Assembly (NCBI RefSeq): GCF_003600835.1 | Contig: NZ_NQYC01000001.1 | Coordinates: 744,001-808,000 of the forward strand | DNA: 64,000 bases | From: Bacillus sp. PK3_68 | Lineage (GTDB): Bacteria > Bacillota > Bacilli > Bacillales > Domibacillaceae | Direction: 5' to 3' | Shown: positions 21,932 to 44,455 of the stretch, one piece after another | Numbering within the stretch: the stretch's first letter is position 1 | Layout: each line of letters begins with the position of its first letter | Position numbers and translations under genes: made by a program | The notes under the pieces: model-generated | Databases searched by the model: none | What the model saw: the letters and a program-made list of their open reading frames with translations, nothing else | What the model was told of the DNA's origin: nothing

Positions 21932-24022
21932 TTATGCTAGTATGGATTTTTCGAGGATTTCTACAATATCCAATGTTTGAATACTGCCCTCTTTCTCCAT
22001 CGCTTTTGTGCCGTCGCTTAACATCGTCAGGCAATACGGACATCCACTGCCTATAACACTCGGATTTACAGCCAGGGCCTGCTGTGTCCGTGCTACATTT
22101 ACCCGCTGTCCGGTATCTTCTTCCATCCACATCATGCCTCCGCCTGCCCCACAGCACATAGCTGTTTCACGATTGCGCTCCATCTCCGCAACTTTTACTC
22201 CAGGTATGCACTTCAGGATTTCTCGCGGCGGATCATAGACATTGTTATAACGGCCCAAGTAACAAGAATCGTGATAGACAACCGTTTCGTTCACTTCGTA
22301 TTTCGGAACAAGCTTGCCCTCTTTGATCAGTTTAAATAGAAGATCCGTGTGGTGATAGACTTCGACATTTTCAAGTCCAAACTCTGGATACTCATGTTTG
22401 AATATGTTGCAGGCATGCGGGTCAATGGTTACAATTTTTCTTACATTGTGCTTCTGAAATGTTTCAATGTTAGCCCTGGCCAGCTCTTGGAATAAAAATT
22501 CATTGCCAATCCGGCGGGGAGTATCTCCGGAATTTTTTTCCTTATTGCCCAAAATGGCAAATCTCACACCCGCTACATTTAGTAATTTGGCAAAGGATTG
22601 AACAATCTTTTGGCTGCGATTATCATAAGAGCCCATCGATCCCACAAAGAATAAGTATTCAAATTCTTCTCCTTTTTTCTCTAGCTCCTTAATGGTCGGC
22701 ACTTCAATATCTTCACGTCCGGCCCGCCAGTTCTCCCGTTCTTTGCGATTGATTCCCCAAGGATTGCCCTGGCGTTCAATGTTAGTAATTGCACGCTGGG
22801 CATCCGCATCCATTTTGCCTTCCGTTAATACGAGATAACGGCGAAGATCAATAATTTTATCTACATGCTCATTCATAACCGGGCACTGATCTTCACAATT
22901 TCGGCAAGTTGTACAAGCCCAGATTTCCTCCTCTGTAATCACGTCCCCGATCAGGCTTGGATTGTAATCAAGAGCGACGGCGGTTTCTTGAAGCGTAGTC
23001 ACTTTAGCCATTGCGGCGAGCTGATTTCCTTGCGTATTAGCAAAAGCAAATCCTGGTACCCATGGCGATTGAGAAGTTACTGCAGCGCCTGTGTTGGTCA
23101 GATGATCCCGCAGCTTCACGATTAGATCCATTGGTGAAAGCATCTTTCCTGTACCGGCTGCTGGACACATATTCGTACAGCGTCCGCATTCTACACAAGC
23201 ATACAAGTCAATAAGTTGATTTTGTGTGAAGTCCTGAATTCTGCCAACACCGAACGTTTCTTGTGATTCATCCTCAAAGTCAATGGCTGCCAGCTTTCCA
23301 GGCGGAGTTAACCGGCTGAAAAACACGTTGGCTGGCCCAGCGATTAAGTGAGCATGCTTAGATTGAGGAACATAGACGAGAAAAGACAATAGCGCCAGCA
23401 AATGAATCCACCAGGAAACATAAAATAGTGCCATGGCAGCGGGCTCACTCAGCCAGCTAAAAACACCAGCAACAACAGAAGCTACCGGTTCAGTTAACGG
23501 CGGCGCATGCCCGTGCCAAATGATAGCCATGCCATTGCCGAACAGAACGGAAAGCATGAGTGTCCCGATAAAAATTAACACAAGCCCGGCCTTCAACCCA
23601 CGTTTCAAACGTACGAGTTTTTCAATATACCGGCGATAGAACGCCCAGACAACAGCTATCAAAATCATTAATGTGACAGCTTCCTGAAAGAATGTAAAGA
23701 AAGGATAAACCGGACCGAGCGGAAGATGAGCACCCGGCACAAGCCCCTTTATGATAAAATCAATCGCCCCTAGTTGGACAAGGAGGAAACCATAAAACAT
23801 CATGACATGAATGATTCCGCTCTTCTTATCCTTTAATAGCTTTTTCTGGCCAAAAACGTTAATTTTCACTAAATCGAGCCGTTCTTTAAACCTGCGGTCA
23901 AACTCCTGCTTGCGGCCTAACTTGATATATTCATAACGAGTCTTCACCAGATATAGAAACAAGTAAAGGGCGTAACCTGTCACTAAAAGAAAGGCGATGG
24001 TATTGATGATTAATAGATTCAT
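21932..24022 (-). CDS. fadF: FadF-type iron-sulfur ETF:quinone oxidoreductase
   Basis: About 696 residues from ATG 24022 (AGGAA nine bases upstream). Six hydrophobic helices of a NarI-like membrane part fill about residues 1-240. Then come two 4Fe-4S motifs (CVECGRCTNMCP and CTTCRNCEDQCP) and two CCG domains, the second with CCGAGGGMMW. This is the architecture of Bacillus FadF (YwjF), thought to pass electrons from EtfAB to menaquinone. It is directly downstream of etfB-etfA, which supports that role. Some acyl-CoA pathways in Firmicutes use it in place of classical ETF-QO. Confidence 0.93.
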   Translation of the reverse strand: MNLLIINTIAFLLVTGYALYLFLYLVKTRYEYIKLGRKQEFDRRFKERLDLVKINVFGQKKLLKDKKSGIIHVMMFYGFLLVQLGAIDFIIKGLVPGAHLPLGPVYPFFTFFQEAVTLMILIAVVWAFYRRYIEKLVRLKRGLKAGLVLIFIGTLMLSVLFGNGMAIIWHGHAPPLTEPVASVVAGVFSWLSEPAAMALFYVSWWIHLLALLSFLVYVPQSKHAHLIAGPANVFFSRLTPPGKLAAIDFEDESQETFGVGRIQDFTQNQLIDLYACVECGRCTNMCPAAGTGKMLSPMDLIVKLRDHLTNTGAAVTSQSPWVPGFAFANTQGNQLAAMAKVTTLQETAVALDYNPSLIGDVITEEEIWACTTCRNCEDQCPVMNEHVDKIIDLRRYLVLTEGKMDADAQRAITNIERQGNPWGINRKERENWRAGREDIEVPTIKELEKKGEEFEYLFFVGSMGSYDNRSQKIVQSFAKLLNVAGVRFAILGNKEKNSGDTPRRIGNEFLFQELARANIETFQKHNVRKIVTIDPHACNIFKHEYPEFGLENVEVYHHTDLLFKLIKEGKLVPKYEVNETVVYHDSCYLGRYNNVYDPPREILKCIPGVKVAEMERNRETAMCCGAGGGMMWMEEDTGQRVNVARTQQALAVNPSVIGSGCPYCLTMLSDGTKAMEKEGSIQTLDIVEILEKSILA

Positions 24023-24060
24023 TATGGTCACTTCCTTTTATTGTGATAGCGCCCCTTTGC

Positions 24061-25032
24061 TTACTGCTTGACTGCAGCAAACTCTTCAATTAACATCGGA
24101 ACGACTTCAAATAGATCACCGACAATGCCGTAGTCGGCTACTTGGAAAATGCTCGCTTCCGGATCTTTATTGATCGCCACAATCACTTTTGAATTGGACA
24201 TGCCTGCCAGATGCTGAATCGCTCCAGAGATTCCGCAAGCAATATATAGATCTGGAGTTACCACCTTTCCCGTCTGACCAATTTGCAGTGAATAATCACA
24301 GTACTCGGCATCACATGCTCCACGAGAAGCACCAACCGCACCACCCAGAACCTTGGCAAGTTCTTTTAATGGTTCAAATCCCTCTTTACTTTTCACTCCG
24401 CGTCCACCAGCGACAATGACTTTTGCTTCTGAAAGGTCGACCCCTTCACTCGCTTTTCTCACCACCTCTTTGATGACGGTGCGTATCGTCTGAACCTCAA
24501 CATCTAAGGAAGAGACTTCTCCAGAACGAGACTCATCCTTTGCTAACGGTTCAATATTGTTCGGACGAAGCGTTGCAAAAACAAGGCCATCTATAATAAT
24601 TTTCTTTTCAAATGCCTTTCCCGAATAAATGGGCCGAGTGAAAACAAGCGTTCCGTCGATTTCTTCCACACCTGTGGCATCAGAAATCAAACCAGACGCA
24701 AGTTTACTGGCGATCCTTGGTGCCAAGTCTTTCCCCAGTGCGGTATGGCCAAAGATTAATCCGTCTGGATTTTCTTGGTCGATGACAGCCATTATTGCCT
24801 GGGAAAAGCCATCGGGTGTGTAGTGCTTTAATTGATCGCTTTCTACAGTTACAATCCGATCTGCACCATATTGGATAAGTTCACTTCCTAATGGCTGAAC
24901 AGCTTCACCGATCAAGATCCCTACTACTTCTCCATCCCCTGCAGCGATCTTGGCTGCATGAATCGCTTCAAATGAGACATTTCTTAAAGCTCCGTCGCGC
25001 ACTTCTCCTAATACGAGAATTTTTCTGCTCAT
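24061..25032 (-). CDS. etfA: Electron transfer flavoprotein alpha subunit
   Basis: 323 residues. N-terminal domain starts RKILVLGEVRDG; the C-terminal FAD-binding domain shows VAGGRGVKSKEGFEPL, GAVGASRGACDAEYC, QIGQTGKVVTPDLYIACGIS (each typical of EtfA), and ends with AINKDPEASIFQVADYGIVG. With EtfB it accepts electrons from the acyl-CoA dehydrogenases encoded upstream. It lies between etfB and fadF in one operon. Confidence 0.96.
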   Translation of the reverse strand: MSRKILVLGEVRDGALRNVSFEAIHAAKIAAGDGEVVGILIGEAVQPLGSELIQYGADRIVTVESDQLKHYTPDGFSQAIMAVIDQENPDGLIFGHTALGKDLAPRIASKLASGLISDATGVEEIDGTLVFTRPIYSGKAFEKKIIIDGLVFATLRPNNIEPLAKDESRSGEVSSLDVEVQTIRTVIKEVVRKASEGVDLSEAKVIVAGGRGVKSKEGFEPLKELAKVLGGAVGASRGACDAEYCDYSLQIGQTGKVVTPDLYIACGISGAIQHLAGMSNSKVIVAINKDPEASIFQVADYGIVGDLFEVVPMLIEEFAAVKQ

Positions 25033-25095: not shown

Positions 25096-25869
25096 TTAAA
25101 CGACTTTCGCTTCGTTACGCAGCAGGTGAACGAGCTCAGTTACCTGCTCATTCAATTCACCGCTTAATACTTTTCCTGCCTCTTTTTTCGCCGGTAAAAA
25201 AATTTCAATGGTTTTAGTTTTCGGTTCCACGTCCTCTTCATCAAGGTCAAGATCATCCAGCTCCAATTCTTCTAATGGCTTTTTCTTTGCTTTCATAATT
25301 CCCGGTAAGGAAGGGTAACGTGGTTCATTTAAGCCTTGCTGGGCAGTGACTAGCAGCGGCAAAGAGGCTTCAATTGTTTCAGAATCACCTTCCACATCGC
25401 GAACAATCGTTACATTCTGACCATCCATCTCAAGGTCTGTAATCGTTGTTACAGCAGGGATTCCCAACATTTCTGCTACACGAGGGCCCACTTGGCCAGA
25501 GCCGCTGTCAATAGCTACATTGCCGGCGATGATTAAATCGGCCTGTTTATCTTTTAAATATTCAGCGATAATTTTAGCTGTTGTATATTGATCGCCATTT
25601 TCAACGTCATCCTCACTATTAATTAATACCGCTTTATCCGCTCCCATGGCTAAAGCCGTTCGCAGCTGCTTCTCCGCTTCCTCGCACCCGACGGAAACAA
25701 CTGTCACTTCCCCTCCTTGAACGTCACGCACTTGTATCGCTTCTTCCACCGCATACTCATCGTACGGATTAATAATAAATTCCGCTCCTTCTTCACTGAT
25801 TTCCCCGTTTGACAGATTGATTTTTTCTTCTGTATCAAATGTTCTTTTTAACAGAACATAAATATTCAT
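25096..25869 (-). CDS. etfB: Electron transfer flavoprotein beta subunit
   Basis: 257 residues, standard length. It starts MNIYVLLKRTFDTEEKI and has the AMP-binding region ADLIIAGNVAIDSGSGQVGP (about 134-153) and the dehydrogenase recognition loop LNEPRYPSLPGIMKAKKKPL (about 188-207, with the Leu that docks to acyl-CoA dehydrogenases). It is in an operon with etfA (63 bp downstream). Confidence 0.96.
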   Translation of the reverse strand: MNIYVLLKRTFDTEEKINLSNGEISEEGAEFIINPYDEYAVEEAIQVRDVQGGEVTVVSVGCEEAEKQLRTALAMGADKAVLINSEDDVENGDQYTTAKIIAEYLKDKQADLIIAGNVAIDSGSGQVGPRVAEMLGIPAVTTITDLEMDGQNVTIVRDVEGDSETIEASLPLLVTAQQGLNEPRYPSLPGIMKAKKKPLEELELDDLDLDEEDVEPKTKTIEIFLPAKKEAGKVLSGELNEQVTELVHLLRNEAKVV

Positions 25870-25930: not shown

Positions 25931-27343
25931 TTAAATGACTTCCGTATCTTCTTTGCTTTCCGGTAATTTCTCTGTCTTCTCTTGAATCCCCGTTATTTTT
26001 TTCGGAATTAAGATCAGAAAGAGGAAGGCAGCCGCTGTAAAAACAGTTAGCAATAGGGCTGTAGACGAAAGAGCGCCTACTGAATTTCCTCCTGCTGCAA
26101 ACAACGCAAACGTAACAAGCGCGAACGACGCTCCAACGCGAGAAGCTACATTCTCAATCGTAATATAAGTAAATGACACAACCCCCAGACGAGCCTCATG
26201 TGCTTTTGATACAATGACAGATTTCACGACTGGTCCAACTGTCCCGATTGCTGTGCCGATTAAGCTCATGGACACGAATAGATAGAAAAAGGACGTGTCG
26301 ATTTTGGCGACAGTCAGCATGCCGATACCCACCACTAACAAACTAATACTCGTGCCAATTAGCACTCGTGCCGAGAGCTTGCCCATTAACCGGCCGCTCA
26401 ACAAGTTGGCCAGTGCCATCGTTAAAAAAAGAGGAAACTGCAGCAAGCCGACAACTGTTGAAGGCTTTCCTTGCACACTTTGTACAAAGAACGTTAATAG
26501 ATACATGACGCTGCTAAATGACATGTACATAATGACAGCAATAACGGACGGCACCCAGAAATTTCTCGTTTTGGCATAATCAATATCCAGCAAAGGCTTT
26601 TTTTGTCTTTTTTCAACAACGAGTAATAAAATAAAAGAAATGACAGAAATCACAAAAGCAGGCACCCACATCCACGAAGAAATGCCATAGTTGTTAATGA
26701 ACGTTGGTACGGTTAAAAGCCCTCCTAATATGAAGAAAACTAATATTACACCACCAAAGTCGAAATGTTCAGATTTTTCACCTTTTACATGGGGTACTCC
26801 GTAAGCAAACAATAAAAAGGAAATCACACCCAATGCCGCACATAGGAAGAAAATAGAAGACCAACCGAAGCGGTCAACGAATATCCCGCTTAACAGCGGA
26901 CCTGCCAAGCCGCCAATAACTGTGTAAAATCCGTAAAGCCCCATGGTTTTTCCCCGTTGCTCGTTCGTAAAATATCTCCCAACGAAGGTGACACCAGCAG
27001 GAATCACAGCGGCCCCGGAGAATCCTTTTAAAAACAACCCGGCAACCAATATCCAAAAAGTAGGAGCAGCCGCAATAAAAAGTGAACCAAGTGCCATACA
27101 GGCAGCTCCGAATAAGATGACTATTTTTTGCCCGAAGGAATCTGACATCCACCCCATGAGTGGTTGAAATCCTGTTAACCCTAGCGCAAATCCCAATTGC
27201 ATATAGACCGAATACCCTGCACCTAAACCAAAGTGTTCAAGCATTTTAGGATAGGCGGGGATATGTGTCGCTTCCGCAAAAACAACAAGAAGAATTCCAA
27301 GACACAAAAAATGAAAGGCTTTCCTCACTGATTTTTCTTCCAT
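25931..27343 (-). CDS. MFS transporter (DHA2-like, about 14 TM)
   Basis: 470 residues, highly hydrophobic with about fourteen membrane helices. The loop between helices 2 and 3 has GWMSDSFGQKIVILFGAACM (MFS signature A type), and a motif C-like GGLAGPLLSGIFVDRFGW follows at about 130-150. It probably moves the substrate or products of the degradation pathway: its position between the acyl-CoA dehydrogenases and etfB supports uptake, while DHA2 proteins are more often exporters. The ribosome site AAGGAGGAAA precedes the ATG. Confidence 0.9.
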   Translation of the reverse strand: MEEKSVRKAFHFLCLGILLVVFAEATHIPAYPKMLEHFGLGAGYSVYMQLGFALGLTGFQPLMGWMSDSFGQKIVILFGAACMALGSLFIAAAPTFWILVAGLFLKGFSGAAVIPAGVTFVGRYFTNEQRGKTMGLYGFYTVIGGLAGPLLSGIFVDRFGWSSIFFLCAALGVISFLLFAYGVPHVKGEKSEHFDFGGVILVFFILGGLLTVPTFINNYGISSWMWVPAFVISVISFILLLVVEKRQKKPLLDIDYAKTRNFWVPSVIAVIMYMSFSSVMYLLTFFVQSVQGKPSTVVGLLQFPLFLTMALANLLSGRLMGKLSARVLIGTSISLLVVGIGMLTVAKIDTSFFYLFVSMSLIGTAIGTVGPVVKSVIVSKAHEARLGVVSFTYITIENVASRVGASFALVTFALFAAGGNSVGALSSTALLLTVFTAAAFLFLILIPKKITGIQEKTEKLPESKEDTEVI

Positions 27344-27606: not shown

Positions 27607-28769
27607 TTAAAATTGTTTCACCTTTTCTGGTTCACACCAGCCCAATGCAGCGGCCGCTTTTTCATAGTACGATTGTGTGCTTCCCAAGTAATTTTCATAA
27701 AAGCGTGCCCGTTTGACATAGAGGTGACAGTCAATTTCTTCGGTAAAACCGATCCCTCCATGAATCTGGATATTATTAGCGGCTGCTTTATTGTACGCTT
27801 CTGCCGCAAATAGCCGGGCACATACTATTGCCTGTACCCGATCTTCGGGCTCATTCTCCAATGCCCAGTTTGCGTAGTAAGCGAGCGAACGGGCCATCTC
27901 AAGGTCTACCTTCATGTCGACGATTTTATGCTTAATCGCTTGAAAACGGCCAATAGGCTGACCAAATTGTTCGCGGATTTTTGCATATTCTGCAGCCATC
28001 TCTACAATGGCTTCCATTCCGCCGACCATGACGGAAGCAAGAGCAGCATTAACCGCGATCACCCCCTCCTGGAGAATGTCCCATCCTTTATGAAGCGGTC
28101 CCACCATTTGCTCTTGAGGGATCTGGACATTATGGAACGTAATTTCCGCCAAATGCCGGCTGTCATCAATATTTTTTGCTTGCGTATTGCAATATTTGTT
28201 TCAGCCAAATCTACGATAACAAGCGAAATTCCTTCCTCTCCTCTTTCTCCACTTGTGCGCACAGGGAGAAATAAGCTATCCGCCAGTTCCGCGTCTGGTA
28301 CTAATGTTTTTGTCCCATTTAATCCAATGGACTCCCCCTCCAAAGAGGCCGTCATTTGAATACCAGCCGGATAGTAGCTGCCACCAGGCTCCAGCCAGGC
28401 AATCGAGAAAGTTTGATTGCCTTCTGCAATGGCTGGCAAGTACTTTTGTTTCTGGCTGTGTGAACCAAATCTTTCAAGCACAGGTACGGCAAAGCTGTTC
28501 GTCTCTAGATAAAGACCAGGCAGAACACTGCGTCCTAACTCTTCAAGTACCGGAACTAAATCGAGTGCTCCGAGCCCCATACCGCCATATTCCTCAGAGA
28601 TGTTAATGCTTGTACAGCCTAATTCGGCCAGCCCGGCAACAATCGTTTTGTAAGACTCTGTCTCCCCTTTGATAAATTCGCGAGCTGTTTTCGTGTGACC
28701 CATACTATTTAAATATTTGTTCACGTACCCGCGAAACATTTCTTGCTCTTCACTTAATGAAAAATCCAT
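27607..28769 (-). pseudogene. Acyl-CoA dehydrogenase, subunit 1 (frameshifted)
   Basis: The first part (from ATG 28769; MDFSLSEEQEMFRGYVNKYL) reads to ETNIAIRKQK, where the frame is lost. The rest (AEITFHNVQIPQEQMVGPL to the stop at 27607, with IQIHGGIGFTEEIDCHLYVK near the end) is in another frame. One extra A in the six-base A-run (T-run about 28172-28177) would give an intact 387-residue protein. It resembles the shorter partner of two-subunit acyl-CoA dehydrogenases such as ChsE1/ChsE2 and is followed 21 bp upstream by the second dehydrogenase. FAD enzyme; electrons go to EtfAB. Confidence 0.85.
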
Positions 28770-28790
28770 GCTATGCCACCTCCATTATGT

Positions 28791-29987
28791 TTAGCGTCCC
28801 AGATCCTTAGGTAAGCCGAGAATGCGCTCTCCAATCGTATTTTTCTGCACCTCGCTCGTTCCTCCTCCGATCGTCATGCCGAATGAATACAGGAAGTTAT
28901 CTTGCCAATAGGAATCTCCGAAAATCGCATCCTCTTTCCACAATACGCCCTGGTGGCCCTGTATGGAGAGTGATTGAGAGAACAGTTCTTTCGTCAATTC
29001 GCTCACTATTAACTTATCCATTGATCCCTCTGCACTCGGCTGCCCATTTTTCAATGTTTTTGTCAGGTTTCGATAATAGTTTAAGAGCGAGCCCCTGGAG
29101 CGGGTATATAAATCCACCATTGTTTTGCGGGTAAACGGGTTTTCGATCAGAGGCTGGCCGTCTTCTTGCAACTCTTTCGCCAATACGACCAAATCTTCAA
29201 ATTGCTGCTCAAGGGTGAATACCTGGGCCCCAATGCCGGATCTTTCATGCATCAACAGAGCAATCATGACTCTCCAGCCTTCATCCACTTCACCAACAAT
29301 ATCTGCATCGTAGGCAATAGCATCTTCTAAATACACCTCATTAAAATCATGCTTTCCGTCCATCTGAATAATTGGCCGCGTTTCCACCCCCTGCTGATTC
29401 ATATCTAAAAGAAAAACCGTAATCCCTTTATGTTTCTTTTCTCCCCGGCTTGTTCTGGCGAGAAGAAAACAGCGGTCAGCTAGATGTCCGAAACTCGTCC
29501 ACACCTTTTGGCCATTAATTTTCCAGCGGTTTCCGTCACGGACGGCTGATGTTTGAATAGCAGTTAAGTCTGATCCAGCATTCGGCTCCGAATAGCCCTG
29601 ACACCATACCTCTTCACCAGTCAATATCTTTTGGATGTACGCCTCCTTTTGTTCTTCCGTCCCGATTTGCATTAACGTGGGTCCTACCATATGAATGCCA
29701 ACATAATTTACGAGCGGCGGAGCCTTAACGCGTACTAGCTCCTGCTGATAAATGATCTCCTCCATTAAGCTGGCTGCTCTGCCCCCGTATTTTTCCGGCC
29801 AAGCAATGGCTGCCCAGCCACCTTCGTATAACTTTCTTTGCCAGTTTCTCAAAAACTCTGAATATTGTTCCTTGTCTTCCGGAATGTCTCTCTTTCCTTC
29901 CAACCAGCCATCGGGCAAATTGCTTTCCAGCCATGTACGAAATTCCTGGCGAAATGCTTCTTCTTTTTCTGTAAAAGAAAAATCCAT
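28791..29987 (-). CDS. Acyl-CoA dehydrogenase, subunit 2
   Basis: 398 residues. It starts MDFSFTEKEEAFRQEFRTWL and has the FAD/substrate motif WCQGYSEPNAGSDLTAIQT (about 132-150), WTSFGHLADRCFLLART, and the C-terminal FGMTIGGGTSEVQKNTIGER (about 372-391). It belongs to the FadE-like class found as heteromers with a second, HGGIGFT-type dehydrogenase, here encoded immediately downstream. It introduces the alpha-beta double bond in the CoA thioester. Confidence 0.94.
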   Translation of the reverse strand: MDFSFTEKEEAFRQEFRTWLESNLPDGWLEGKRDIPEDKEQYSEFLRNWQRKLYEGGWAAIAWPEKYGGRAASLMEEIIYQQELVRVKAPPLVNYVGIHMVGPTLMQIGTEEQKEAYIQKILTGEEVWCQGYSEPNAGSDLTAIQTSAVRDGNRWKINGQKVWTSFGHLADRCFLLARTSRGEKKHKGITVFLLDMNQQGVETRPIIQMDGKHDFNEVYLEDAIAYDADIVGEVDEGWRVMIALLMHERSGIGAQVFTLEQQFEDLVVLAKELQEDGQPLIENPFTRKTMVDLYTRSRGSLLNYYRNLTKTLKNGQPSAEGSMDKLIVSELTKELFSQSLSIQGHQGVLWKEDAIFGDSYWQDNFLYSFGMTIGGGTSEVQKNTIGERILGLPKDLGR

Positions 29988-30022
29988 TCTTTTTCTCCCC
30001 TTTCAATCAAACGATTATCGAA

Positions 30023-30439
30023 TTACGCAGGAATCCATTGTGGCAGAGCGCGTTCTTCAGTGATGTCTTGCCACGTCATTTTTACATTCATCCCGATGCT
30101 TACATCTTCCGGGCTGCAATTCAACACGTTGGCAATCAGTTTTACTTGTGGTGCTTTTTCCAGCTCTACAACAGCGATGACAAGCGGAAGGTCATCTTGA
30201 AATCCAGGCAGAAACGGCCGGTAGGAAACGATAAATGAATAGACAGTTCCATTCACTTCACTGCCGAGATTTTCCCAGCTGAGTTCTGTACTGCCGCATT
30301 TGGAGCAGGCCGGTCCAGGCGGATGTGAATAATGCTTACAATTTTCACATGTTTGGATCATCAGCTCATGACGATCGGCTGCATCCCAATATGGGTGATT
30401 ATCCTGATTTTTTAATGGTATTGGTTTTTGATAGTCCAT
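30023..30439 (-). CDS. DUF35 zinc-ribbon/OB-fold protein
   Basis: 138 residues: a zinc ribbon with Cys31, Cys34, Cys45 and Cys48, then an OB fold (VNGTVYSFIVSYRPF; LPLVIAVVELEKAPQVKLIA; IGMNVKMTWQ). DUF35 proteins partner thiolase-fold enzymes; in actinobacterial steroid degradation a DUF35 domain is needed for the Ltp2 retro-aldolase. Here the gene lies 11 bp downstream of the thiolase-fold gene, which strongly suggests a complex. Confidence 0.92.
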   Translation of the reverse strand: MDYQKPIPLKNQDNHPYWDAADRHELMIQTCENCKHYSHPPGPACSKCGSTELSWENLGSEVNGTVYSFIVSYRPFLPGFQDDLPLVIAVVELEKAPQVKLIANVLNCSPEDVSIGMNVKMTWQDITEERALPQWIPA

Positions 30440-30450
30440 AGTTTCCCCTC

Positions 30451-31614
30451 CTAGTTTCTAAGAATCATAGCACCAGCAATATCCGGACCAGCCCAGCCCG
30501 TGCAGAGACCGATTTCACAATTTTCCACTTGGCGGTCTGTTCCTTGATAGTCATGACGAATCTGGCGGACAATCTCAAGAACGTTGTTCATTCCATGTGT
30601 ATAGCCTTCTGAGAGCATGCCACCGGCTGTATTGCTTGGGAGTTTTCCGCCCATTTTCAGATTGCCTGCTGCTACAAAGTCCCCTACTTCTCCGCGCGGC
30701 GCGATGCCATAAGCCTCTAACTGCCGCAAAACAACCCAGCTGTAGCAATCGTAAATGGAAGCGACATCTAAATCTTCCGGAGAAATGCCGGCCTTTTTAT
30801 ACAATTCAGGAGCTACGTAATCGGCTGCTACTTCTGATAAGTCGGACCAGTAATGAGAGTGGGATACACATTGTCTGGCGGTTATCCCCATAATATAAAC
30901 CGGCCTTGACTGGCAATCCTTTGCTCTTTCAGCCGATGTTACGATAATGGCATTCGCTTCATCTGATTCAAGGCAAAAATCATGTTTATTGAACGGGTAG
31001 CTTAAATAAGGGGTTTCTTTATAAGCCTCCATCGTTAATGGCTTTCCATAAAAATAAGCTTTCGGATTTCGCTGGGCATGTTCGTAAAAGCTGACGCACA
31101 CGTGACCTAAATGCTCTTGTGTAAGCCCAGTTTCATGCATATGTCGAGTAGCAAAAAGCCCAAACCATTGAGCCGGCCCCCCTGCTCCGTAAGGGATGAT
31201 AAAGCTGCCGCCGTCAATAGCAGACTGCAGCATATTGATGTCCCATCCGCCGCCGCCCATTCTCACTCCCGAGCGTCCATTCATCGAACGATAAATGAGC
31301 ACCGTGTTCACCTGTCCTGTTTCAATGAGCCCAATTGCATCTGCAATTAGCATTTCCGTACTGCTGCCGCCCCCCATAATATCTTTAACGTATTTAGGAC
31401 GAACACCTAGATAAGTAGCCAATTGATGGGAAGTACAAGAGTCATTCTCACTATAGCTCATAAATCCATCGATATCCTTCGCTTCAAGTCCCGCATCCTG
31501 AATGGCCGCTCTTGCTGCATCTAGCGCCAGATGCAGCGGTGTCGTGCCAGAGTTTTTTGAACGCTCACTTTCTCCTACACCAACAATGGCATAGCGGTCT
31601 TTTATTTGTGCCAT
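30451..31614 (-). CDS. Thiolase-fold protein, probable Ltp2-like retro-aldolase
   Basis: 387 residues from ATG 31614 (GAGGGGTG upstream). The thiolase fold is clear (YAIVGVGESERSKNSGTTPL at the start; GLCTGWAGPDIAGAMILRN at the end). Where true thiolases have the nucleophile Cys in a CASG motif, this protein has GGGSSTE (81-87) with no Cys. Near the second half it has DVASIYDCYSWVVLRQLE (283-300), matching the Tyr-containing region of SCP2/Ltp2-type aldolases. I infer a CoA-ester retro-aldolase working with the DUF35 protein; a plain thiolase seems unlikely. Confidence 0.85.
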   Translation of the reverse strand: MAQIKDRYAIVGVGESERSKNSGTTPLHLALDAARAAIQDAGLEAKDIDGFMSYSENDSCTSHQLATYLGVRPKYVKDIMGGGSSTEMLIADAIGLIETGQVNTVLIYRSMNGRSGVRMGGGGWDINMLQSAIDGGSFIIPYGAGGPAQWFGLFATRHMHETGLTQEHLGHVCVSFYEHAQRNPKAYFYGKPLTMEAYKETPYLSYPFNKHDFCLESDEANAIIVTSAERAKDCQSRPVYIMGITARQCVSHSHYWSDLSEVAADYVAPELYKKAGISPEDLDVASIYDCYSWVVLRQLEAYGIAPRGEVGDFVAAGNLKMGGKLPSNTAGGMLSEGYTHGMNNVLEIVRQIRHDYQGTDRQVENCEIGLCTGWAGPDIAGAMILRN

Positions 31615-31634
31615 ACAAAACACCCCTCTTCATT

Positions 31635-32051
31635 TTAGAAAAAACGCAAAGTAGCTTGACCTGATCCAACAACTTTCCCAGGTGCTTTTTCAGCTTTAAT
31701 CTCTAGATTGACATATTGCTTTCCTTCTTCTTCATAGACACTGCGGACAACTGCCGAACAGGTAATCTCATCCCCTGGTCTTGTTATCGCTCCAAATCTC
31801 ATACGAAAGTTTGTTGATTCAGCTGTCACACCGGCTATATGCATCACATATTCGCCAAGAAACCCCATGATGAGCATGCCATGGGCAATAACGCCCGGCA
31901 TTCCGATACTTTTGGCAAATTCATCATCCGTATGCAACGGATTGAAGTCTCCTGAAGCGCCAGCATATTTAACGAGTTGCACCTTTGTAACGGCCGGTTT
32001 TGTAAGCGATTCTAATACTTGTCCTTCTTGCAATTCACTGTATGTCAGCAA
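31635..32051 (-). CDS. MaoC-fold enoyl-CoA hydratase (active subunit)
   Basis: 138-residue single hot-dog-fold protein with the full hydratase-2 motif: YAGASGDFNPLHTDDEFAKS (29-48), in which Asp35 and His40 are the catalytic pair, and IAHGML (56-61). It should hydrate the alpha-beta double bond made by the acyl-CoA dehydrogenases. It lies beside a second MaoC-fold gene lacking the His, as in ChsH1-ChsH2 hydratases. Confidence 0.92.
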   Translation of the reverse strand: MLTYSELQEGQVLESLTKPAVTKVQLVKYAGASGDFNPLHTDDEFAKSIGMPGVIAHGMLIMGFLGEYVMHIAGVTAESTNFRMRFGAITRPGDEITCSAVVRSVYEEEGKQYVNLEIKAEKAPGKVVGSGQATLRFF

Positions 32052-32098
32052 TCGCTGCTCCTCCTCTCTCTTTCCAAAAATAACTGTTATATTTTGGC

Positions 32099-32548
32099 TT
32101 ATTGAACGGTCATTTTTGAGCGGTAAATAATATTCATACGGCTAATAACTACTCTGTTTTGGTTTTCATCCTTGATTTCTGTATCAAGCACTAAACACTG
32201 CATTCGTCCGCTTCTTCCTTCCTTTTCATATAAATCAGTTACTTTCATCTGACAGGTCAGGCGGTCTCCGGGCTTGATTGGACGAGTGTAAATAAACTCC
32301 TGTTCACCGTGAAGCATTCGTTTCGGATCAAGCTCAAGATCAATGCCCTCACCTTCTGAACCAATGACAATCGGAAAGGTAGGTGGAGCAATGATTCCTC
32401 CATAAGGCGTGCCGGTTGCATACTCTTCATCCACGTATAACGGGTTTTGATCACCGATGGCCTGGGCAAATTGCCGAATATGCCTCGTGTCCACTTCAAA
32501 CGTAAATTCCGGTCCTGTTAAACCGATGATGCTTTTATCTAAATCCAT
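32099..32548 (-). CDS. MaoC-like N-terminal dehydratase domain protein (non-catalytic partner)
   Basis: 149 residues from ATG 32548 (GGAGGG eight bases upstream). FAS1-like dehydratase/MaoC_N fold: FAQAIGDQNPLYVDEEYATG (27-46). The position of the catalytic His is Tyr38 (NPLY instead of NPLH). Probably it forms a heteromer with the active subunit and shapes the acyl-binding pocket, as known for ChsH1-ChsH2. The start is 4 bases after the stop of the acyl-CoA synthetase gene. Confidence 0.88.
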   Translation of the reverse strand: MDLDKSIIGLTGPEFTFEVDTRHIRQFAQAIGDQNPLYVDEEYATGTPYGGIIAPPTFPIVIGSEGEGIDLELDPKRMLHGEQEFIYTRPIKPGDRLTCQMKVTDLYEKEGRSGRMQCLVLDTEIKDENQNRVVISRMNIIYRSKMTVQ

Positions 32549-32552
32549 TGGT

Positions 32553-34739
32553 TTACCCTCCAACCTCTGTTTTTTCAGCCATATGGCTGTTTGTCACAAT
32601 AAGCGCATCGGCTGCTTTCAAGCCATTCTCATAGACAATGAGTGGATTAATGTCTAACTCATCAATCCTGCCTTCCGAGTCAGCAATGAGTTCTGAGACT
32701 CTTAGTAACACATTGATTATGGCTTCACGATCGGCAGGTGCTTGACCACGCACTCCGGAAAGGATGGCTTTTCCTTTGATTTCCTCCACCATCTCGATAG
32801 CATCCTGCCTTGTAAGCGGAGCCACTCGGAAAGACACATCTTTGAGTGTTTCTACGAAAATTCCACCTAGACCAAACATGATGACCGGACCAAAGGCAGG
32901 GTCCTTCGTGACACCGATGATGACTTCTGTGCCTTTAGGAAGCATTTCTTGAACAGATACACCATTAATAACTGCATCCGGCTTGTACCCTTTAGCAGAT
33001 CGCAAAATATCAGCATACGCATCGATCACTTGATGGTCGTTTTGCAAATGAAGCCTGATTGCATCAGCATCTGTTTTGTGAGGAATATCTTTGGAATCTA
33101 CCTTCAGCACAACCGGATAGCCAATGCTTCTGGCACATTGAACAGCTTCCTCAGCCGTAGCTGCCAGGGCTTTTTGAGCCGTTGTAATTTGGTAAATCTC
33201 TAATATTTCGCTCGCTTCAAATTCACTTAATGTAACACCCGGCTTTAGCAAGTTCTCCAAAATACCTTTTGCCTCGCTCCCTGCTGTCTCACGCTGTTCT
33301 GCCGATTCATTCGCCTGTTTGTTACGGCGATATTTCTCACTGTAATCGACCAGCTTGGCAAGAGCTGAGACGGGATGTAAATCCCCTGTTATTACCGGTA
33401 TTCCATTTTTCTCCATTTCAGCGGCCCCTTTAGGAATAGACATTCCTTGCAGTGGAAATGTCGTAACCAAAATGAATTTATCGGAGCTTTTGCAAATCTC
33501 AATAAATTCCTGAACCAAAGGGTGATCAGCCTCCCAATGCATAGGGAACTCGGTTAAAATGATATTGTCGACTTCCGGATCTTCACTCAGTGCCCGCAAT
33601 GGTGCGATAAATAGTTCTGGATTCGTCACTGCCGCAGCAGCTGTTAAATCAATAGGGTTAGATGTACTGGCAAATGACGGAACAGCTTGTTTAATTTTTG
33701 CTTTCGTCTCGTCTTTAAGCGGAATGATTGTAAGGCCGTTCGCTTCACAACGGTCCGCTTCGTTGATCCCTCTTCCGCCGGAACTTGTAATAATGACGGT
33801 ATTGCGCCCCGTAGGTAATTTCCCCGAAAGAAACAGCTTGGAAAAAGAAATGATTTCTTCATAATCATTCGCTCTAATCATGCCTGTCTGCTTAAAGAAA
33901 GCATCATAAACCTGGTCTGAACCAGCCAGAGACCCGGTATGAGAAGCGGCCGCCCGGCTTCCTGCCGAACTTCGTCCCGTCTTCATCACGATCATAGGCT
34001 TATTGCGGTCAAGTGCTTCTTTTGCTAATCGGCGCAGCTTAGCAGGATCTTTTGCGCCTTCTAAATAGCCGCTGATCACTTTCGTATTTGGATCATGAAC
34101 CATATACTCGACGATGTCCGCAAATTCCGTTTCCATTTCATTCCCGACAGTAACAAAATAGTTAAAGCTTAAACCATGTTGGGCTGCCGCCATATAAGTA
34201 AGGACGCCAAAAGCCCCGCTCTGAGAAACATACCCAACGGCGCGATTGTCACTTAATGGATAGGCCATCACGCCAGGTGAAAAGGTACCAACGAGCCCAT
34301 TCAGTGTATTTACCATGCCTACACAGTTCGGGCCGATCAATCGAATGCCATTCTTTCTGGCAATCTCAGCAAGGAGCTCCTGCTGCTTTGCCCCCTCCTC
34401 GCCAGTTTCAGAAAAACCGGAAGCAAAGATGATGGCAGCTTTTACTTTTTTCTGCGCACACTCTTCAAGACTTTGCTGAATTTGATTCGCACTGACACAA
34501 AATATCGCTAAATCTACAGGCTTCGGTACGTCCGTAATAGACGAGTAACACGGCAATCCTTCTATTTCTGTAGACTTTGGATTGATCGGAAAAATCTCTC
34601 CGCTAAACTTTCCGTCGATTAAGGCTTTCATTTGAATGTAACCAAGCTTGTTAGGATTCTTTGATGCACCCAATACGGCAACAGAACGAGGATAAAATAA
34701 TGATTCGAGACTTCTTTCGGCAACGCTTTCATTACTCAT
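32553..34739 (-). CDS. ADP-forming acyl-CoA synthetase
   Basis: About 728 residues from ATG 34739 (GGGGTG upstream). Domains in order: CoA-binding Rossmann domain (FYPRSVAVLGASKNPNKLGY near 14-33), succinyl-CoA-ligase-like domains with the phospho-His loop ASHTGSLAGSD (about 264-274), a linker, and a C-terminal ATP-grasp domain (GYPVVLKVDSKDIPHKTDAD; ELDINPLIVYENG). It makes acyl-CoA from a carboxylate, ATP and CoA, with ADP and phosphate. As first gene of the cluster it probably activates the growth substrate. Confidence 0.93.
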   Translation of the reverse strand: MSNESVAERSLESLFYPRSVAVLGASKNPNKLGYIQMKALIDGKFSGEIFPINPKSTEIEGLPCYSSITDVPKPVDLAIFCVSANQIQQSLEECAQKKVKAAIIFASGFSETGEEGAKQQELLAEIARKNGIRLIGPNCVGMVNTLNGLVGTFSPGVMAYPLSDNRAVGYVSQSGAFGVLTYMAAAQHGLSFNYFVTVGNEMETEFADIVEYMVHDPNTKVISGYLEGAKDPAKLRRLAKEALDRNKPMIVMKTGRSSAGSRAAASHTGSLAGSDQVYDAFFKQTGMIRANDYEEIISFSKLFLSGKLPTGRNTVIITSSGGRGINEADRCEANGLTIIPLKDETKAKIKQAVPSFASTSNPIDLTAAAAVTNPELFIAPLRALSEDPEVDNIILTEFPMHWEADHPLVQEFIEICKSSDKFILVTTFPLQGMSIPKGAAEMEKNGIPVITGDLHPVSALAKLVDYSEKYRRNKQANESAEQRETAGSEAKGILENLLKPGVTLSEFEASEILEIYQITTAQKALAATAEEAVQCARSIGYPVVLKVDSKDIPHKTDADAIRLHLQNDHQVIDAYADILRSAKGYKPDAVINGVSVQEMLPKGTEVIIGVTKDPAFGPVIMFGLGGIFVETLKDVSFRVAPLTRQDAIEMVEEIKGKAILSGVRGQAPADREAIINVLLRVSELIADSEGRIDELDINPLIVYENGLKAADALIVTNSHMAEKTEVGG

Positions 34740-35069
34740 GCTTTTCACCCCGATTTAACATAATTTGAATAGATATCCATCCTTGATTGCTATCATATAA
34801 AACCCGATTTAATAATTCAGAAAAAAAAGATACTTAGATTATTTAATTATTAGGCTTTGAAGTTTTTAAAAAAATCCGTACATCCTTTGTTATATAAGAG
34901 GTAAAATAATAAAGAACAATTTTTGTGTACACGATAACCCCGACTTTATGCTTGATAACCTCGACAAATGAATAAGATAGACTTCTTGCTTTATGAGGAC
35001 CTCCGCTTTTACAAACAAAAAAGAACGGTATCTCCAATCTTCAAAATGGAGATACCGTTCTTTTGATTG
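34740..35069. other. Promoter region of the acyl-CoA cluster and terminator of the next gene
   Basis: About 330 bp, AT-rich. The left half should contain the promoter of the ten-gene leftward cluster (a TATGAT-like -10 at about 34790-34797 read leftward). The right half has the terminator at 35022-35063. No gene is supported. Confidence 0.4.
35022..35063. terminator. Bidirectional terminator
   Basis: A 15-bp perfect stem AGAACGGTATCTCCA (35022-35036) with 35047-35061, with A-run on the left and TTTT on the right. It closes the leftward 703-residue gene. Confidence 0.85.
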
Positions 35070-37181
35070 TTAATGAAATCGTTCCAGCCACTTGATCAAT
35101 CTTGCCTGAATTTTATTTGACGGAATTTTCCTTCCTCTTTCAATGCTGCTCAAATAAGAAGAAGAGATTTGAATTTCTTCCGCTGCCTCATGCAAAGATA
35201 GGTTTAATCTTTCTCTTATTTCCCTTACTCGGCTCCCCATGATTTCTGTTGATCCCTCTACGCTATAATGATCTGGCTGAGCCTTTGGTATGCTTTGTAC
35301 GGATTGATTTCTCTTAATCGGCCGATATTGTTCCTTCACATATTCAGGTGGATCGATAACAATCGTCGAATGAGCCCAAACACGGCCCCATCCTTTTTGA
35401 TCGGCAATCAACTCATTCCACTTTTCATAATGCCAGGACTGAATAAGGCCATCTTGCTGTAAGGTATCAAGTGCCTTTTCCAATCGATCTCTCGTGCGCG
35501 AAGGCATACGTTCATTAGTATTGACACTTATCGCCTCTAGTAACGTGTTGACTTTATTAGGCTGAAGAAAGTCTCCTTTTCTTGCCTGAATCCGCCAACG
35601 CCAGCTTAAATATCTGGCCAGCCGCTTTTCCCACGTTTTACGGTAAGGATCATAATGCAAAGTTTTTATAGGAAGAAGTGCTACCTGTCTTCCAGAGCCG
35701 CTTAAATACTTTGCAAATACTTGATCGACTGTATACCTTAGTTTTTTCCCGTTCATTTCCTCCGTTATCCGACAGTCTTGTCTTTCTTGATCAACAAATA
35801 AAAAGGCTCGTCCTTCGAGTTTTGTCTCTACTGGTTTTCCTTTTTCATATACTATCGCTTTATCTAGCTCAATCCATAGATTTTGGATGATTGAAAGCGA
35901 TTTCAACACTTGGCGTCGTTGCTTTAATTCATAGCCGCCCCGTCGCCCCTCCCCGCCCAACTTTGGCTTTAGGCCACGAATAGATAACAAATCATCGATC
36001 TCCACTTCAACTACATCTTTATAGTGTTTTGCTTTAGACAAGAAAATAGCACAAAGCGCATCAAATACATCTGCATCTAAGTCTGATAATCCTTCAGCTT
36101 GCTTCCACGATTCCTTAATAATGGGGTGGGTAGCGTGAAATCGATAGTGATCTTTTTTAAAGGGCTTGATTTGAAGTACGCCCGTCATGTTTCCTTTAGA
36201 AAGCGGCATGGTTGGCCAAAAGCCCTGTTCATGTAGAAAATGGTTCTTATAAAGAGCTTCCCGAACAGATTGGTAGGGGGCATTGTTCATGACAGACAAA
36301 AAATCTTTTGTAGCTAGAGTTGAGTCGTATTCAAGCGACAATGCAGAAAATGGTTGAAACAAAGCATTCTTTTTTAAATTGAACATGGCCTCAATTTCGT
36401 GCATCGTCCAATCTTCTAGATTTAACATCCTACTAATTTTCTTAATCCATTCTAACGTGTAAGTGTTCACTATACTTGTAAACCTTATAATAAATTCTTG
36501 ATCCTCAGATAAATTTTTTGATATATACTCATAAAAAAGTTCATTTAACTCTTTCCTATTTAATGCCTCTAAGCCATGAGGACCAAGAGATTGTGCCATT
36601 TCTTCAAGGACCCATTCAGTTAAATGCATTCGGCACCACCTACAAAAATTCTCCCACACTTCGTCATTCACTAAAAAAGTATCCCTTTTCAAAATATTCT
36701 CTATGTAGTGGATGGATGAGCTTTTCAACGTCTTATCATTCAAGATGGAGGATAGGGATGGGGAAAACTTTTTATATTTCATCAACAGGTGGGTAACAAT
36801 GTTATCAGCAATTTGTCTAATGAACCGGTTGCGTGCAGCCACACGCAAACTGTTAAACACTTGGGCACTCTCCCGGTAGACGCGCTCCCAAATGATAAAT
36901 GAATTAAACCCTTCATTTTCAATAAAGATCGGTAAATCGGATGCTGTCCTCTCTGATCTGCCTCCAAATCTGTGATCGAGCCCTAATCTACTATCCTGTT
37001 CATAAACACACAGAATAAGAAAATCATCTATTTTTCCTGATAATTGTTTAGAAAGGTTGTTTGTTTTTTTTACACCTTTCTGTCTCAAAACATGATCATT
37101 TTCTAACATCATTACTACCTCCCCAGACTTTAATAGAGGATATATGTCTCGATGAATGTTTTTGTTGAACTCTAGAATCAT
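35070..37181 (-). CDS. Large protein with C-terminal Cro/CI helix-turn-helix; function unknown
   Basis: 703 residues, no signal peptide or membrane segment. The last 60 residues are a typical Cro/CI domain (SRVREIRERLNLSLHEAAEE; SSSYLSSIERGRKIP). The middle (about 370-480) looks like a winged helix, with LDADVFDALCAIF, EVEIDDLLSIRGLKPK and GGYELKQRRQVLKSLSIIQN, a layout reminiscent of plasmid replication initiators. The N-terminal 350 residues are helical and unrecognised. It stands alone between two operons with its own terminator. It might be a regulator or a relic replication initiator; neither is proved. Confidence 0.75.
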   Translation of the reverse strand: MILEFNKNIHRDIYPLLKSGEVVMMLENDHVLRQKGVKKTNNLSKQLSGKIDDFLILCVYEQDSRLGLDHRFGGRSERTASDLPIFIENEGFNSFIIWERVYRESAQVFNSLRVAARNRFIRQIADNIVTHLLMKYKKFSPSLSSILNDKTLKSSSIHYIENILKRDTFLVNDEVWENFCRWCRMHLTEWVLEEMAQSLGPHGLEALNRKELNELFYEYISKNLSEDQEFIIRFTSIVNTYTLEWIKKISRMLNLEDWTMHEIEAMFNLKKNALFQPFSALSLEYDSTLATKDFLSVMNNAPYQSVREALYKNHFLHEQGFWPTMPLSKGNMTGVLQIKPFKKDHYRFHATHPIIKESWKQAEGLSDLDADVFDALCAIFLSKAKHYKDVVEVEIDDLLSIRGLKPKLGGEGRRGGYELKQRRQVLKSLSIIQNLWIELDKAIVYEKGKPVETKLEGRAFLFVDQERQDCRITEEMNGKKLRYTVDQVFAKYLSGSGRQVALLPIKTLHYDPYRKTWEKRLARYLSWRWRIQARKGDFLQPNKVNTLLEAISVNTNERMPSRTRDRLEKALDTLQQDGLIQSWHYEKWNELIADQKGWGRVWAHSTIVIDPPEYVKEQYRPIKRNQSVQSIPKAQPDHYSVEGSTEIMGSRVREIRERLNLSLHEAAEEIQISSSYLSSIERGRKIPSNKIQARLIKWLERFH

Positions 37182-41913: not shown

Positions 41914-41950
41914 TCTTCATCAATCCTCTCATTATATAATTAACCTCCTT

Positions 41951-43297: not shown

Positions 43298-43349
43298 CCA
43301 TCCATCCCCTTGCCAATTGTTTTGGCTAATGATCGATTTATTTAATTTT

Positions 43350-44455
43350 TTATGAGTGTGTAACTGTTGGCTGTTTAAGTTCATTAACACGTTTAAATGT
43401 GTGTCTTTCAAAAGGCGTTTCACATGGTTGGCCCGGAGCTAATTCAAAGTATCCATCGGACAAATTCATAACAATTGAAAAAACAGTATCAGAAGGCAAT
43501 GGTCTTCCAGGTAAAGGGCTAAGTGTTTCTCCATGTCTACAGATAGAATCCGGATAATTGATATGATCTGACAAAAGTGACTTTATCGTTTCCACATCAA
43601 TCTTTCCATGCTCCTTTTTCAATAATTTCTCTCCCCTTCCATGGCGTAAATGAGTATCAGGGAAATTTAGTCTTGCCAAATCTTTAATTTTAATATGCTT
43701 TGGTCCGTAAAAATGATTAGAGTGAACAATAGTATCATCCGTTAGATAAATAGCATCATAGTCATCGCATGTGCTTTCGATATCTAGCGCTTCCCCTTCT
43801 TTGGTGGCGATTAAATAGTTCGCGGATGTTCCCCTTTGCAAACGGGACACTTGTCCAACCGCTTGGGAAAATAGTTGGCTATTTAAAATGCCCCGTAAAA
43901 TAACATGAACTGGCACTCCATGTGCTTGTTCAGTTGTACTTAGATAATTTAGGCATACGCCAATGCCGCTATCATTCATGCCAATCTTGCCGACAATGCC
44001 AGCTTCTGTGCACATTAACACCTTTGGGCGGTTCGGCTGAATAATTTCTACTATAATTAAACTTGGCTTAAAAGCAGCCATCCAATCCCAATTTTGTGCT
44101 AATAGTGTCTTGTTGTTTTTAGTCCCCGGAGGAACAACTGCTAATGAAGTACAACCATCAGGTGCTGACATAATTTCACTTCGTGCATTCAACGTAACAA
44201 TATCTATTAATTCAACTTTCGCCCCGTCGCTAATCCCTTTCATTTCTTCCATGATGAATGGATCATACTTCTCAATCCAAGGAATATAGGCGGCTGCTCG
44301 CTCTCTTGCTTCCTTCCAACTAGTTTTATTTGTGTCCATAAAGAGTTGTTTATAAGCCTTTAAAGCGCATTGTATTTCTCTTTCTGCTTGCTCACCAATT
44401 TGTTTGCCACATTCGTATGCAGTGCCTTCTACCCGGATTTTTTTATCGTTTGCAA
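43350..44455 (-). pseudogene. C45-family acyltransferase/amidase (frameshifted near the start)
   Basis: TTG 44455, with GGAGGG seven bases upstream, opens LQTIKK; then the frame breaks. The continuation (IRVEGTAYECGKQIGEQAER, on to the stop at 43350) is intact in another frame. One more A in the seven-base run (T-run 44438-44444) restores 368 residues. The predicted autoprocessing nucleophile Cys (about residue 102) is in SAPDGCTSLAVV, as in isopenicillin-N acyltransferase; LLAQNWDW follows. The family cleaves or transfers acyl groups on amides. First gene of the operon; probably intact in the organism. Confidence 0.85.

Follow-up and report, generated by a model that had tools for sequence, protein, structure and literature searches.

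An igr-like gene cluster with a candidate thiolase-fold retro-aldolase in Bacillus sp. PK3_68 and other Bacillales

Organization and conservation of the gene cluster

The 64,000-nucleotide stretch of Bacillus sp. PK3_68 analyzed here (in its whole length, hereafter the window; genome of 4.83 Mb in two contigs) carries a gene cluster that resembles the igr side-chain degradation genes of actinobacteria and includes a candidate retro-aldolase of the thiolase fold. Seven closely packed genes run along the minus strand from 34748 to 27607 and encode an acyl-CoA synthetase, two MaoC-fold proteins (MaoC1 and MaoC2), the thiolase-fold protein, a DUF35 protein and two acyl-CoA dehydrogenases (A and B) (Table 1). 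About 260 bases past dehydrogenase B, the same strand continues from 27343 to 20361 with genes for a major facilitator superfamily (MFS) transporter, for the electron transfer flavoprotein (ETF) subunits EtfB and EtfA and a FadF-like protein, as we take these three to be from their translations, and for an aldehyde dehydrogenase. An earlier note on this DNA had described the gene content, order and strand from the synthetase through the dehydrogenases, which open reading frames (ORFs) and Pfam matches bear out, and the downstream genes it had named as completing the set all lie on the same strand. Its coordinates also hold, except that 34739, given as the end of the cluster, is an internal ATG of the synthetase, whose frame opens at the GTG at 34748.

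Table 1. Features of the cluster and its upstream flank, in window coordinates.
Feature	Position	Strand	Evidence
ADP(NDP)-forming acyl-CoA synthetase, 731 aa, predicted acid activation	32553..34748	-	Pfam ATP-grasp_5, Succ_CoA_lig, CoA_binding_2
MaoC-fold subunit 1 (MaoC1, HadA-like), probably inert, substrate-holding half	32099..32563	-	Pfam FAS1_DH_region; NPLY instead of the NPxH His
MaoC-fold subunit 2 (MaoC2, HadB-like), predicted catalytic enoyl-CoA hydratase	31635..32051	-	Pfam MaoC_dehydratas; DFNPLH dyad
Thiolase-fold retro-aldolase candidate, 390 aa	30451..31623	-	Gly86; Tyr291-Asp-Cys293-Tyr; Tyr341 (place of TcLtp2 Tyr344)
Stand-alone DUF35 protein (zinc ribbon and OB fold), putative aldolase partner	30023..30439	-	Pfam OB_ChsH2_C, zf-ChsH2
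Acyl-CoA dehydrogenase A, 398 aa, predicted catalytic subunit	28791..29987	-	Closest solved chains 4x28_A, Tcur3483; HERSG
Acyl-CoA dehydrogenase B, N-terminal piece (frameshifted)	28059..28769	-	Pfam Acyl-CoA_dh_N, Acyl-CoA_dh_M
Acyl-CoA dehydrogenase B, C-terminal piece, other frame	27607..28152	-	Pfam Acyl-CoA_dh_1
MFS transporter	25931..27343	-	Best NCBIfam EmrB/DHA2, under cut-off
EtfB	25096..25869	-	Label from translation
EtfA	24061..25032	-	Label from translation
FadF-like iron-sulfur membrane oxidoreductase, putatively passing electrons to quinone	21932..24031	-	Label from translation
Aldehyde dehydrogenase	20361..21833	-	Pfam Aldedh, 485.4 bits; ELGGKS and GQRC motifs
Terminator-like palindrome 3' of the regulator gene	35017..35064	-	Read from sequence; beyond the 8-base loop limit of the terminator scan
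Putative 703-aa regulator with XRE helix-turn-helix at the C terminus, probably transcribed separately	35070..37181	-	Near the cluster in relatives

A homologue scan returned 280 relatives, and the best 79 loci were examined: 44 from Bacillales, one betaproteobacterial locus (L106) and 34 others. All 44 Bacillales loci carry the six core genes (MaoC1, MaoC2, the aldolase candidate, DUF35 and dehydrogenases A and B), and 43 share their order, the remaining one (L079) having the MaoC pair at the opposite end. The earlier note had proposed to check relatives for conserved gene order, and this conservation of the core genes and their order is far beyond chance. Linkage of the other genes was scored at 40% identity or more on the same strand, with the aldehyde dehydrogenase also required to lie within 8 kb. 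By this rule the aldehyde dehydrogenase is linked in 33 of the 44 Bacillales loci, the synthetase in 29, the MFS transporter in 20 and EtfA and EtfB in eight, while L065 and L107 also have a FadF-like gene beside the other genes. In 13 loci the place of the synthetase is taken by ligases of the AMP-forming type (one ORF cluster, identified by a Pfam check of one member), and neither ligase type was found in L091 or in L103, a 7.6-kb contig. The 1271 ORFs of the 79 loci were clustered, with annotation mainly of the larger clusters; none of the 12 ORF clusters present in at least 11 of the 44 Bacillales loci points to a substrate, and the transporter type varies.

By thiolase-fold protein, the nearest named relatives are Bacillus wudalianchiensis (98%) and Bacillus aerolatus (97%). 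The spread is patchy: nine of 398 genomes of the class, that of the window included, encode a protein at least 73% identical, the next match falling to 37%, and the protein occurs in two of three genomes of the same genus. A plasmid search with the aldolase candidate returned 548 records, none at 60% identity or above.

Dehydrogenase B is present in the window assembly as two overlapping frames, with the break near 28173-28176. Fifteen ORFs of the relative G003 have a match in the window of no less than 70% identity; in 14 of them the match is unbroken and spans 90% or more of the ORF, and dehydrogenase B is the sole split one. The ORF cluster of dehydrogenase B has a member of at least 372 aa in all 44 Bacillales loci, and therefore intact copies exist. 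The break in the window may reflect either a pseudogene or an assembly error.

Active site, tree position and partners of the thiolase-fold protein

The aldolase candidate matches Pfam Thiolase_C_1, and its residues depart from those of SCP2-type thiolases, which are marked by the nucleophilic Cys and by HDCF and GHP motifs. Numbered from the GTG start (Met336 counted from TAGGM at 332), Gly86 aligns with the nucleophile Cys of BbsB, Tyr291 takes the His place of HDxF so that YDCY stands for HDCF, and Tyr341 takes the place of the His in the YGHP of BbsB. The earlier note had proposed a thiolase-fold gene lacking the Cys nucleophile, and named a conserved Cys-His-Cys set as what would speak against its idea; the alignment confirms the loss of the nucleophile and of both His places. 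The site instead combines features of two retro-aldolases. The available text on CtSal describes Tyr302 and Cys304 of its YDCY motif as essential, proposes Gln347 as a helper of Cys304, and places Gln352 where TcLtp2, whose motif is YDHF, has its second catalytic residue Tyr344 (PMC12329534). In the window protein, Tyr291 and Cys293 occupy the places of CtSal Tyr302 and Cys304, giving the Sal-type YDCY rather than the YDHF of Ltp2, and Tyr341 occupies that of TcLtp2 Tyr344, as in Ltp2; Met336 and Tyr341 stand in the columns of CtSal Gln347 and Gln352.

The Tyr base and the second Tyr (Tyr341) are invariant in a 34-row alignment. In a 99-row alignment, YDC[YF] and EGY are present in all 56 rows of the window's group, which comprises the window, the 44 Bacillales loci, L106 and 10 further loci (at least five of which repeat loci already named). 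A neighbouring group of 34 loci at 39-44% identity (Chloroflexi, Rokubacteria, proteobacteria, Actinomadura and others) has YDAF and EGY in 34 of 34. These group patterns place Tyr341 with the Ltp2 side of the tree, the Cys being common to Sal and SCP2-type thiolases.

The main tree (46 rows, mixture model; supports given as bootstrap/SH-like approximate likelihood ratio test) joins the Bacillales group and L106 in one clade (100/100). This clade groups with the YDAF proteins (100/99) and then with Ltp2 and L155 in a 23-row clade (99/94). A different clade unites Sal with its relatives (100/98), and the HDCF/HDAF thiolases fall outside (100/99). A quick tree of 121 rows, built without bootstrap, gives a similar picture with long branches. 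Since the groups were defined with the first tree already known, and long branches are frequent, p values of the approximately unbiased (AU) test are a guide only; read in this way, one clade of the Bacillales group with thiolases (p 0.0023), strict Ltp2 membership as one clade with TcLtp2 alone (p 0.0036) and Sal membership as one clade with CtSal (p 5.75e-05) are each rejected. Clustering with beta-oxidation thiolases, the other outcome that the earlier note had set against its idea, is thus not what the tree and the test give. The protein is also below the curated cut-off of the NCBIfam lipid-transfer protein model PRK07855 (NF005892), at 336.5 bits vs 469. Two Actinomadura genomes have one PRK07855 protein each (705.8 and 701.1 bits), and from their grouping with TcLtp2 we infer that the model stands for Ltp2. 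Judged on these alignments and trees, the window protein's group forms a clade of its own within the Ltp2 branch, which we regard as new.

Neighbourhoods in the sister YDAF group (L110-L143, several of them short contigs) contain a DUF35 match in 27 loci, a dehydrogenase match in three and a MaoC1 match in two, and give no substrate clue. In L106 (Betaproteobacterium RIFCSPLOWO2_12_FULL_62_58), an aldolase with 59% identity and a DUF35 gene lie beside an ADP-forming synthetase (38%), and the 15.5-kb locus gave no match to a dehydrogenase; a neighbouring gene looks, as we read it, like a TctC-type binding protein. The acid used in L106 may thus carry its hydroxyl group from the outset. Two loci from genomes of the window's taxonomic order, L038 (G384) and L043 (G227), encode thiolase-fold proteins that have YDCY with Gln at the Gln352 place and group with CtSal (L043 at 41% identity). 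Both are possibly Sal-type aldolases from that taxonomic order.

The partner proteins were compared with solved structures. The DUF35 protein scores 90.8 bits against the DUF35 domain of ChsH2 in 6ok1 and 75.4 bits against chain B of 9myr. It has the Cys4 zinc pattern of Ltp2 partners (C-x2-C-x10-C-x2-C, binding predicted from the gene and its sequence), conserved as Cys4 in 43 of 43 relatives examined, and not the Cys3His1 site of the Sal type. MaoC2 is closest to 4rv2_B, a MaoC family protein by name, and to HadB, and carries an Asp/His dyad in DFNPLH, with DxNPxH in 39 of 41 relatives. MaoC1 has DQNPLY, and DxNPxH is present in none of 44 relatives. A dyad in one MaoC protein and none in the other matches the ChsH1-ChsH2 or HadAB type of heterodimer, and the pairing is putative.

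Dehydrogenase A has 4x28_A (170.6 bits) and Tcur3483 as its best solved chains, and HER[ST]G is conserved in 40 of 43 relatives. The 4x28_A chain is listed merely as an acyl-CoA dehydrogenase; we take 4x28 to be ChsE4/FadE26, and presume that the catalytic Glu of this class sits in the HERSG of dehydrogenase A. The best solved match of dehydrogenase B is 4l1f (163.6 bits), ahead of the steroid-type Tcur3481 (119.8 bits) and 4x28_D (95 bits), and its intact orthologue in L065 has Leu at the place of the Glu in the YEGT of 4l1f. Two adjacent, unlike subunits, A with HERSG and B with Leu, correspond to a heteromeric ChsE-type enzyme whose assembly is putative. The two dehydrogenases of the earlier note therefore do look complementary, although B is not a single frame in the window.

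Proposed pathway, known systems and alternatives

Building on the gene content, conservation, fold, tree position and catalytic-site residues observed here, and on a chemistry that we infer from characterised relatives, we consider it probable that the cluster is an igr-like side-chain module that uses aldol cleavage, and not thiolysis, to shorten a bulky carboxylic acid of alicyclic, aromatic or branched type. The synthetase would convert the acid to its acyl-CoA, from which a heteromer of dehydrogenases A and B would form the 2-enoyl-CoA, the electrons reaching quinone by way of EtfBA and FadF. Hydration of this product by the MaoC heterodimer would give a 3-hydroxyacyl-CoA, whose C2-C3 bond the thiolase-fold protein, together with DUF35, would cut, releasing acetyl- or propionyl-CoA and an aldehyde; Tyr291 would act as base, and Cys293 or Tyr341 would protonate the acyl-CoA enolate. 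The aldehyde dehydrogenase would then turn the aldehyde into an acid, to leave or be reactivated. That a ligase is present, whichever of the two unrelated families it comes from, fits an acid as input, and the oxidative direction fits the linkage of ETF and FadF in this genus. Retro-aldol cleavage fits because the common ORF clusters (those in at least 11 of the 44 loci) hold only the aldolase candidate and the aldehyde dehydrogenase for steps after the 3-hydroxyacyl-CoA. If ChsE and ChsH are a guide, the heteromeric make-up of the dehydrogenase and of the hydratase suggests that the acyl group is bulky.

Several observations weigh against this pathway. Met sits at the place of CtSal Gln347, and in the VIA structure comparison the Z scores for 6ok1 and the uncharacterised 4u4e are tied (difference below 1), with SCP2-type and archaeal thiolases still at about 40 to 45. 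Because dehydrogenase B is frameshifted in the window assembly, the module may be impaired in this strain. Etf genes are linked in only eight of the 44 loci and FadF in two. The aldehyde dehydrogenase is absent by the linkage rule in 11 of the 44 (the L103 contig ends there), does not adjoin the core in the window's own genus, and could act before activation; the aldehyde product that the earlier note had suggested is thus supported, and not proven, by this gene. A short-chain dehydrogenase/reductase (SDR) cluster, c11, lies near in eight of the 44 loci, where a dehydrogenation route is possible.

The igr comparison made in the earlier note stands, through the DUF35 match to ChsH2, the active and inert MaoC pair and the heteromeric type of dehydrogenase pair, and is refined by the separate clade and the Sal-like motif. 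The igr set (ChsE1-ChsE2, ChsH1-ChsH2 and Ltp2; actinobacteria) and ORF40-44 of Comamonas testosteroni TA441 have the same activities as predicted from sequence, sharing with the window a heteromeric dehydrogenase, a MaoC pair with an inert half, a thiolase-fold aldolase with DUF35, the second catalytic Tyr and the Cys4 zinc pattern. Unlike them, the window has YDCY and not YDHF, its own ligase, an MFS transporter and an aldehyde dehydrogenase, no KshA above cut-off in its genome, a position in a separate clade, and a DUF35 gene separate from MaoC, whereas the two are fused in ChsH2 and ORF40. A separate DUF35 gene fits, because in the available text of Horinouchi MaoC and DUF35 as separate proteins are both functional in C. 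testosteroni (PMC12502768).

With Sal-Shy of proteobacterial bile-acid degradation the window shares YDCY, Gly at the nucleophile place and, as predicted here, an aldehyde product to remove. It differs from that system by Tyr for Gln352, Met for Gln347, Cys4 for Cys3His1, a MaoC pair in place of Shy as hydratase, and rejection from the Sal clade. The enzyme that follows Sal-Shy, Sad, is an aldehyde dehydrogenase. The putative thiolase 4u4e of Sphaerobacter thermophilus differs in having YDSF, a His at the Tyr341 place and a position in another clade. IpfE of ibuprofen degradation is reportedly a DUF35-type protein. For the ibuprofen route of Rhizorhabdus wittichii, the available text, in which IpfDE is called a thiolase, describes a retro-aldolase step on a non-steroid acid with release of propionyl-CoA (PMC9195938), so that retro-aldol chemistry is not confined to steroids; likened by description, that route differs in that a dioxygenase makes the diol that is cleaved, and none is found among the cluster genes of the window. 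The module thus appears from its genes to work like the igr and Sal modules, yet it stands apart from them in its clade, in its mixed site and in its gene complement.

More tentatively, and with somewhat less than even confidence, we propose that the protein is a third kind of CoA-dependent retro-aldolase in Bacillales, acting on a non-steroid acid and keeping both the Sal Cys and the Ltp2 second Tyr as general acids. Rolfe et al. proposed that Ltp2 arose by remodelling a Sal-like site, and such an enzyme, if real, would be a surviving intermediate of that step and would provide Firmicutes with a way to break down bulky acids by aldol cleavage. In the literature searched, side-chain aldolases of the thiolase fold come from steroid-degrading actinobacteria and proteobacteria. 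Among the papers listed from the full-text literature searched (judged by title and start of abstract, most subscription papers lying outside it), none showed such a module in Bacillus or its kin; one find, PMC6678751, mentions Bacillus, and a text find in the review PMC8399759 gave no mention of Bacill-, Firmicutes, Gram-positive or Lysinibacillus. A complete, conserved Bacillales version would mean that the chemistry is broader than steroids and would supply a further aldolase for work on C-C bonds, and its natural Cys-plus-Tyr site could be used to probe how one of the Sal-type and Ltp2-type mechanisms evolved from the other.

Four other explanations were weighed. The same cleavage could yield a ketone from a tertiary 3-hydroxyl, as in TcLtp2, with the aldehyde dehydrogenase making the acid from an alcohol or aldehyde before activation. 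Tyr341 is a trait of Ltp2, and cleavage of the C3 side chain yields a ketone at C17; the 11 loci lacking a linked aldehyde dehydrogenase and the eight with the SDR cluster also agree with a ketone. We nonetheless judge it unlikely, since YDC[YF] is the motif of Sal, whose product is an aldehyde, and no alcohol dehydrogenase or Baeyer-Villiger-type gene is found among the 12 common ORF clusters.

A steroid or bile-acid side-chain module, equivalent to igr, cas or sal, appears quite improbable. The nearest solved relatives of the aldolase, DUF35 and dehydrogenase A are steroid enzymes, a steroid role of 4x28 and Tcur3483 being our assumption. Peribacillus butanolivorans (L069) and Bacillus sp. 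BA3 (L071) carry another transporter (cluster c45) at the cluster end, and the best NCBIfam model for that of L071 is a conjugated bile salt MFS transporter, but at 213.4 bits vs a cut-off of 400. The ring-opening marker KshA_C scores 21.6 bits in the window genome, under its cut-off of 23.3, and about 301 in two Actinomadura genomes. It had no match in nine of 14 genomes searched, and among 14 named control genomes only Corynebacterium glutamicum matched, below cut-off; the Bacillales genomes of L066 and L098 exceed the cut-off (30.7 and 27.4 bits) over only 83 and 66 of 207 positions. For the AMP ligase of L073, the CasG steroid-24-oyl-CoA synthetase model reaches 273.6 vs a cut-off of 750, and the AU test rejects both Sal and strict Ltp2 membership. 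Steroid catabolism in the window strain is accordingly not supported, as judged from one marker in 14 chosen genomes; KshA_C was the single ring-opening marker sought, and other ring pathways or a side-chain-only attack are compatible with this result.

We give little credence to another reaction of the thiolase-fold protein (acyl transfer, decarboxylation or synthetic aldol addition, as in PhlABC, MucABC and TbSLP). The available text on DUF35-thiolase-fold complexes elsewhere does describe Friedel-Crafts acylation and ketoacyl chemistry (PhlC, MucABC, TbSLP and the HMG-CoA-synthase complex), but here the Tyr base and second Tyr are invariant, the dehydrogenases and hydratase deliver precisely a 3-hydroxyacyl-CoA, and ETF and FadF in this genus indicate oxidation. 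An ordinary beta-oxidation operon with a merely divergent thiolase, to which the fold and Thiolase_C_1 match might point, is ruled out for practical purposes by Gly at the nucleophile place, Tyr at both His places and the AU rejection of a thiolase grouping.

Regulators and other neighbouring genes

Transcription of the module probably starts at the synthetase, independently of the upstream regulator gene, because the terminator-like palindrome sits between the two. A promoter and terminator scan was uninformative, with 33 promoter-like and 19 terminator-like sites vs 33.3 and 16.7 expected.

The 703-aa regulator is encoded within the fetched stretch (up to 10 kb per side) of 31 of the 44 Bacillales loci. 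Its structural model (pLDDT 75.2) is weakly similar to the replication initiators RctB, in domains 2-3 (Foldseek E 6.6e-4), and RepE54 (E 0.018). A distant homologue is present in 27 of 72,556 plasmid records, including nine from Peribacillus and eight from Cytobacillus, and the 352-kb second contig of the window genome encodes a homologue with 26% identity over residues 363-618. The protein may be related to plasmid initiators and have been recruited as a pathway regulator. Eleven of the 44 loci (L072, L073, L096-L098, L100-L103, L105 and L109) have instead a regulator with GAF and PucR helix-turn-helix domains (the L072 member checked with Pfam), and no locus carries both types.

Further upstream, at 40282-44339 of the window, adjoin a gene that we take to be amidohydrolase-like, an amino-acid permease gene and a Pfam AAT-type acyltransferase/amidase gene, which together are perhaps an N-acyl amide utilisation set.

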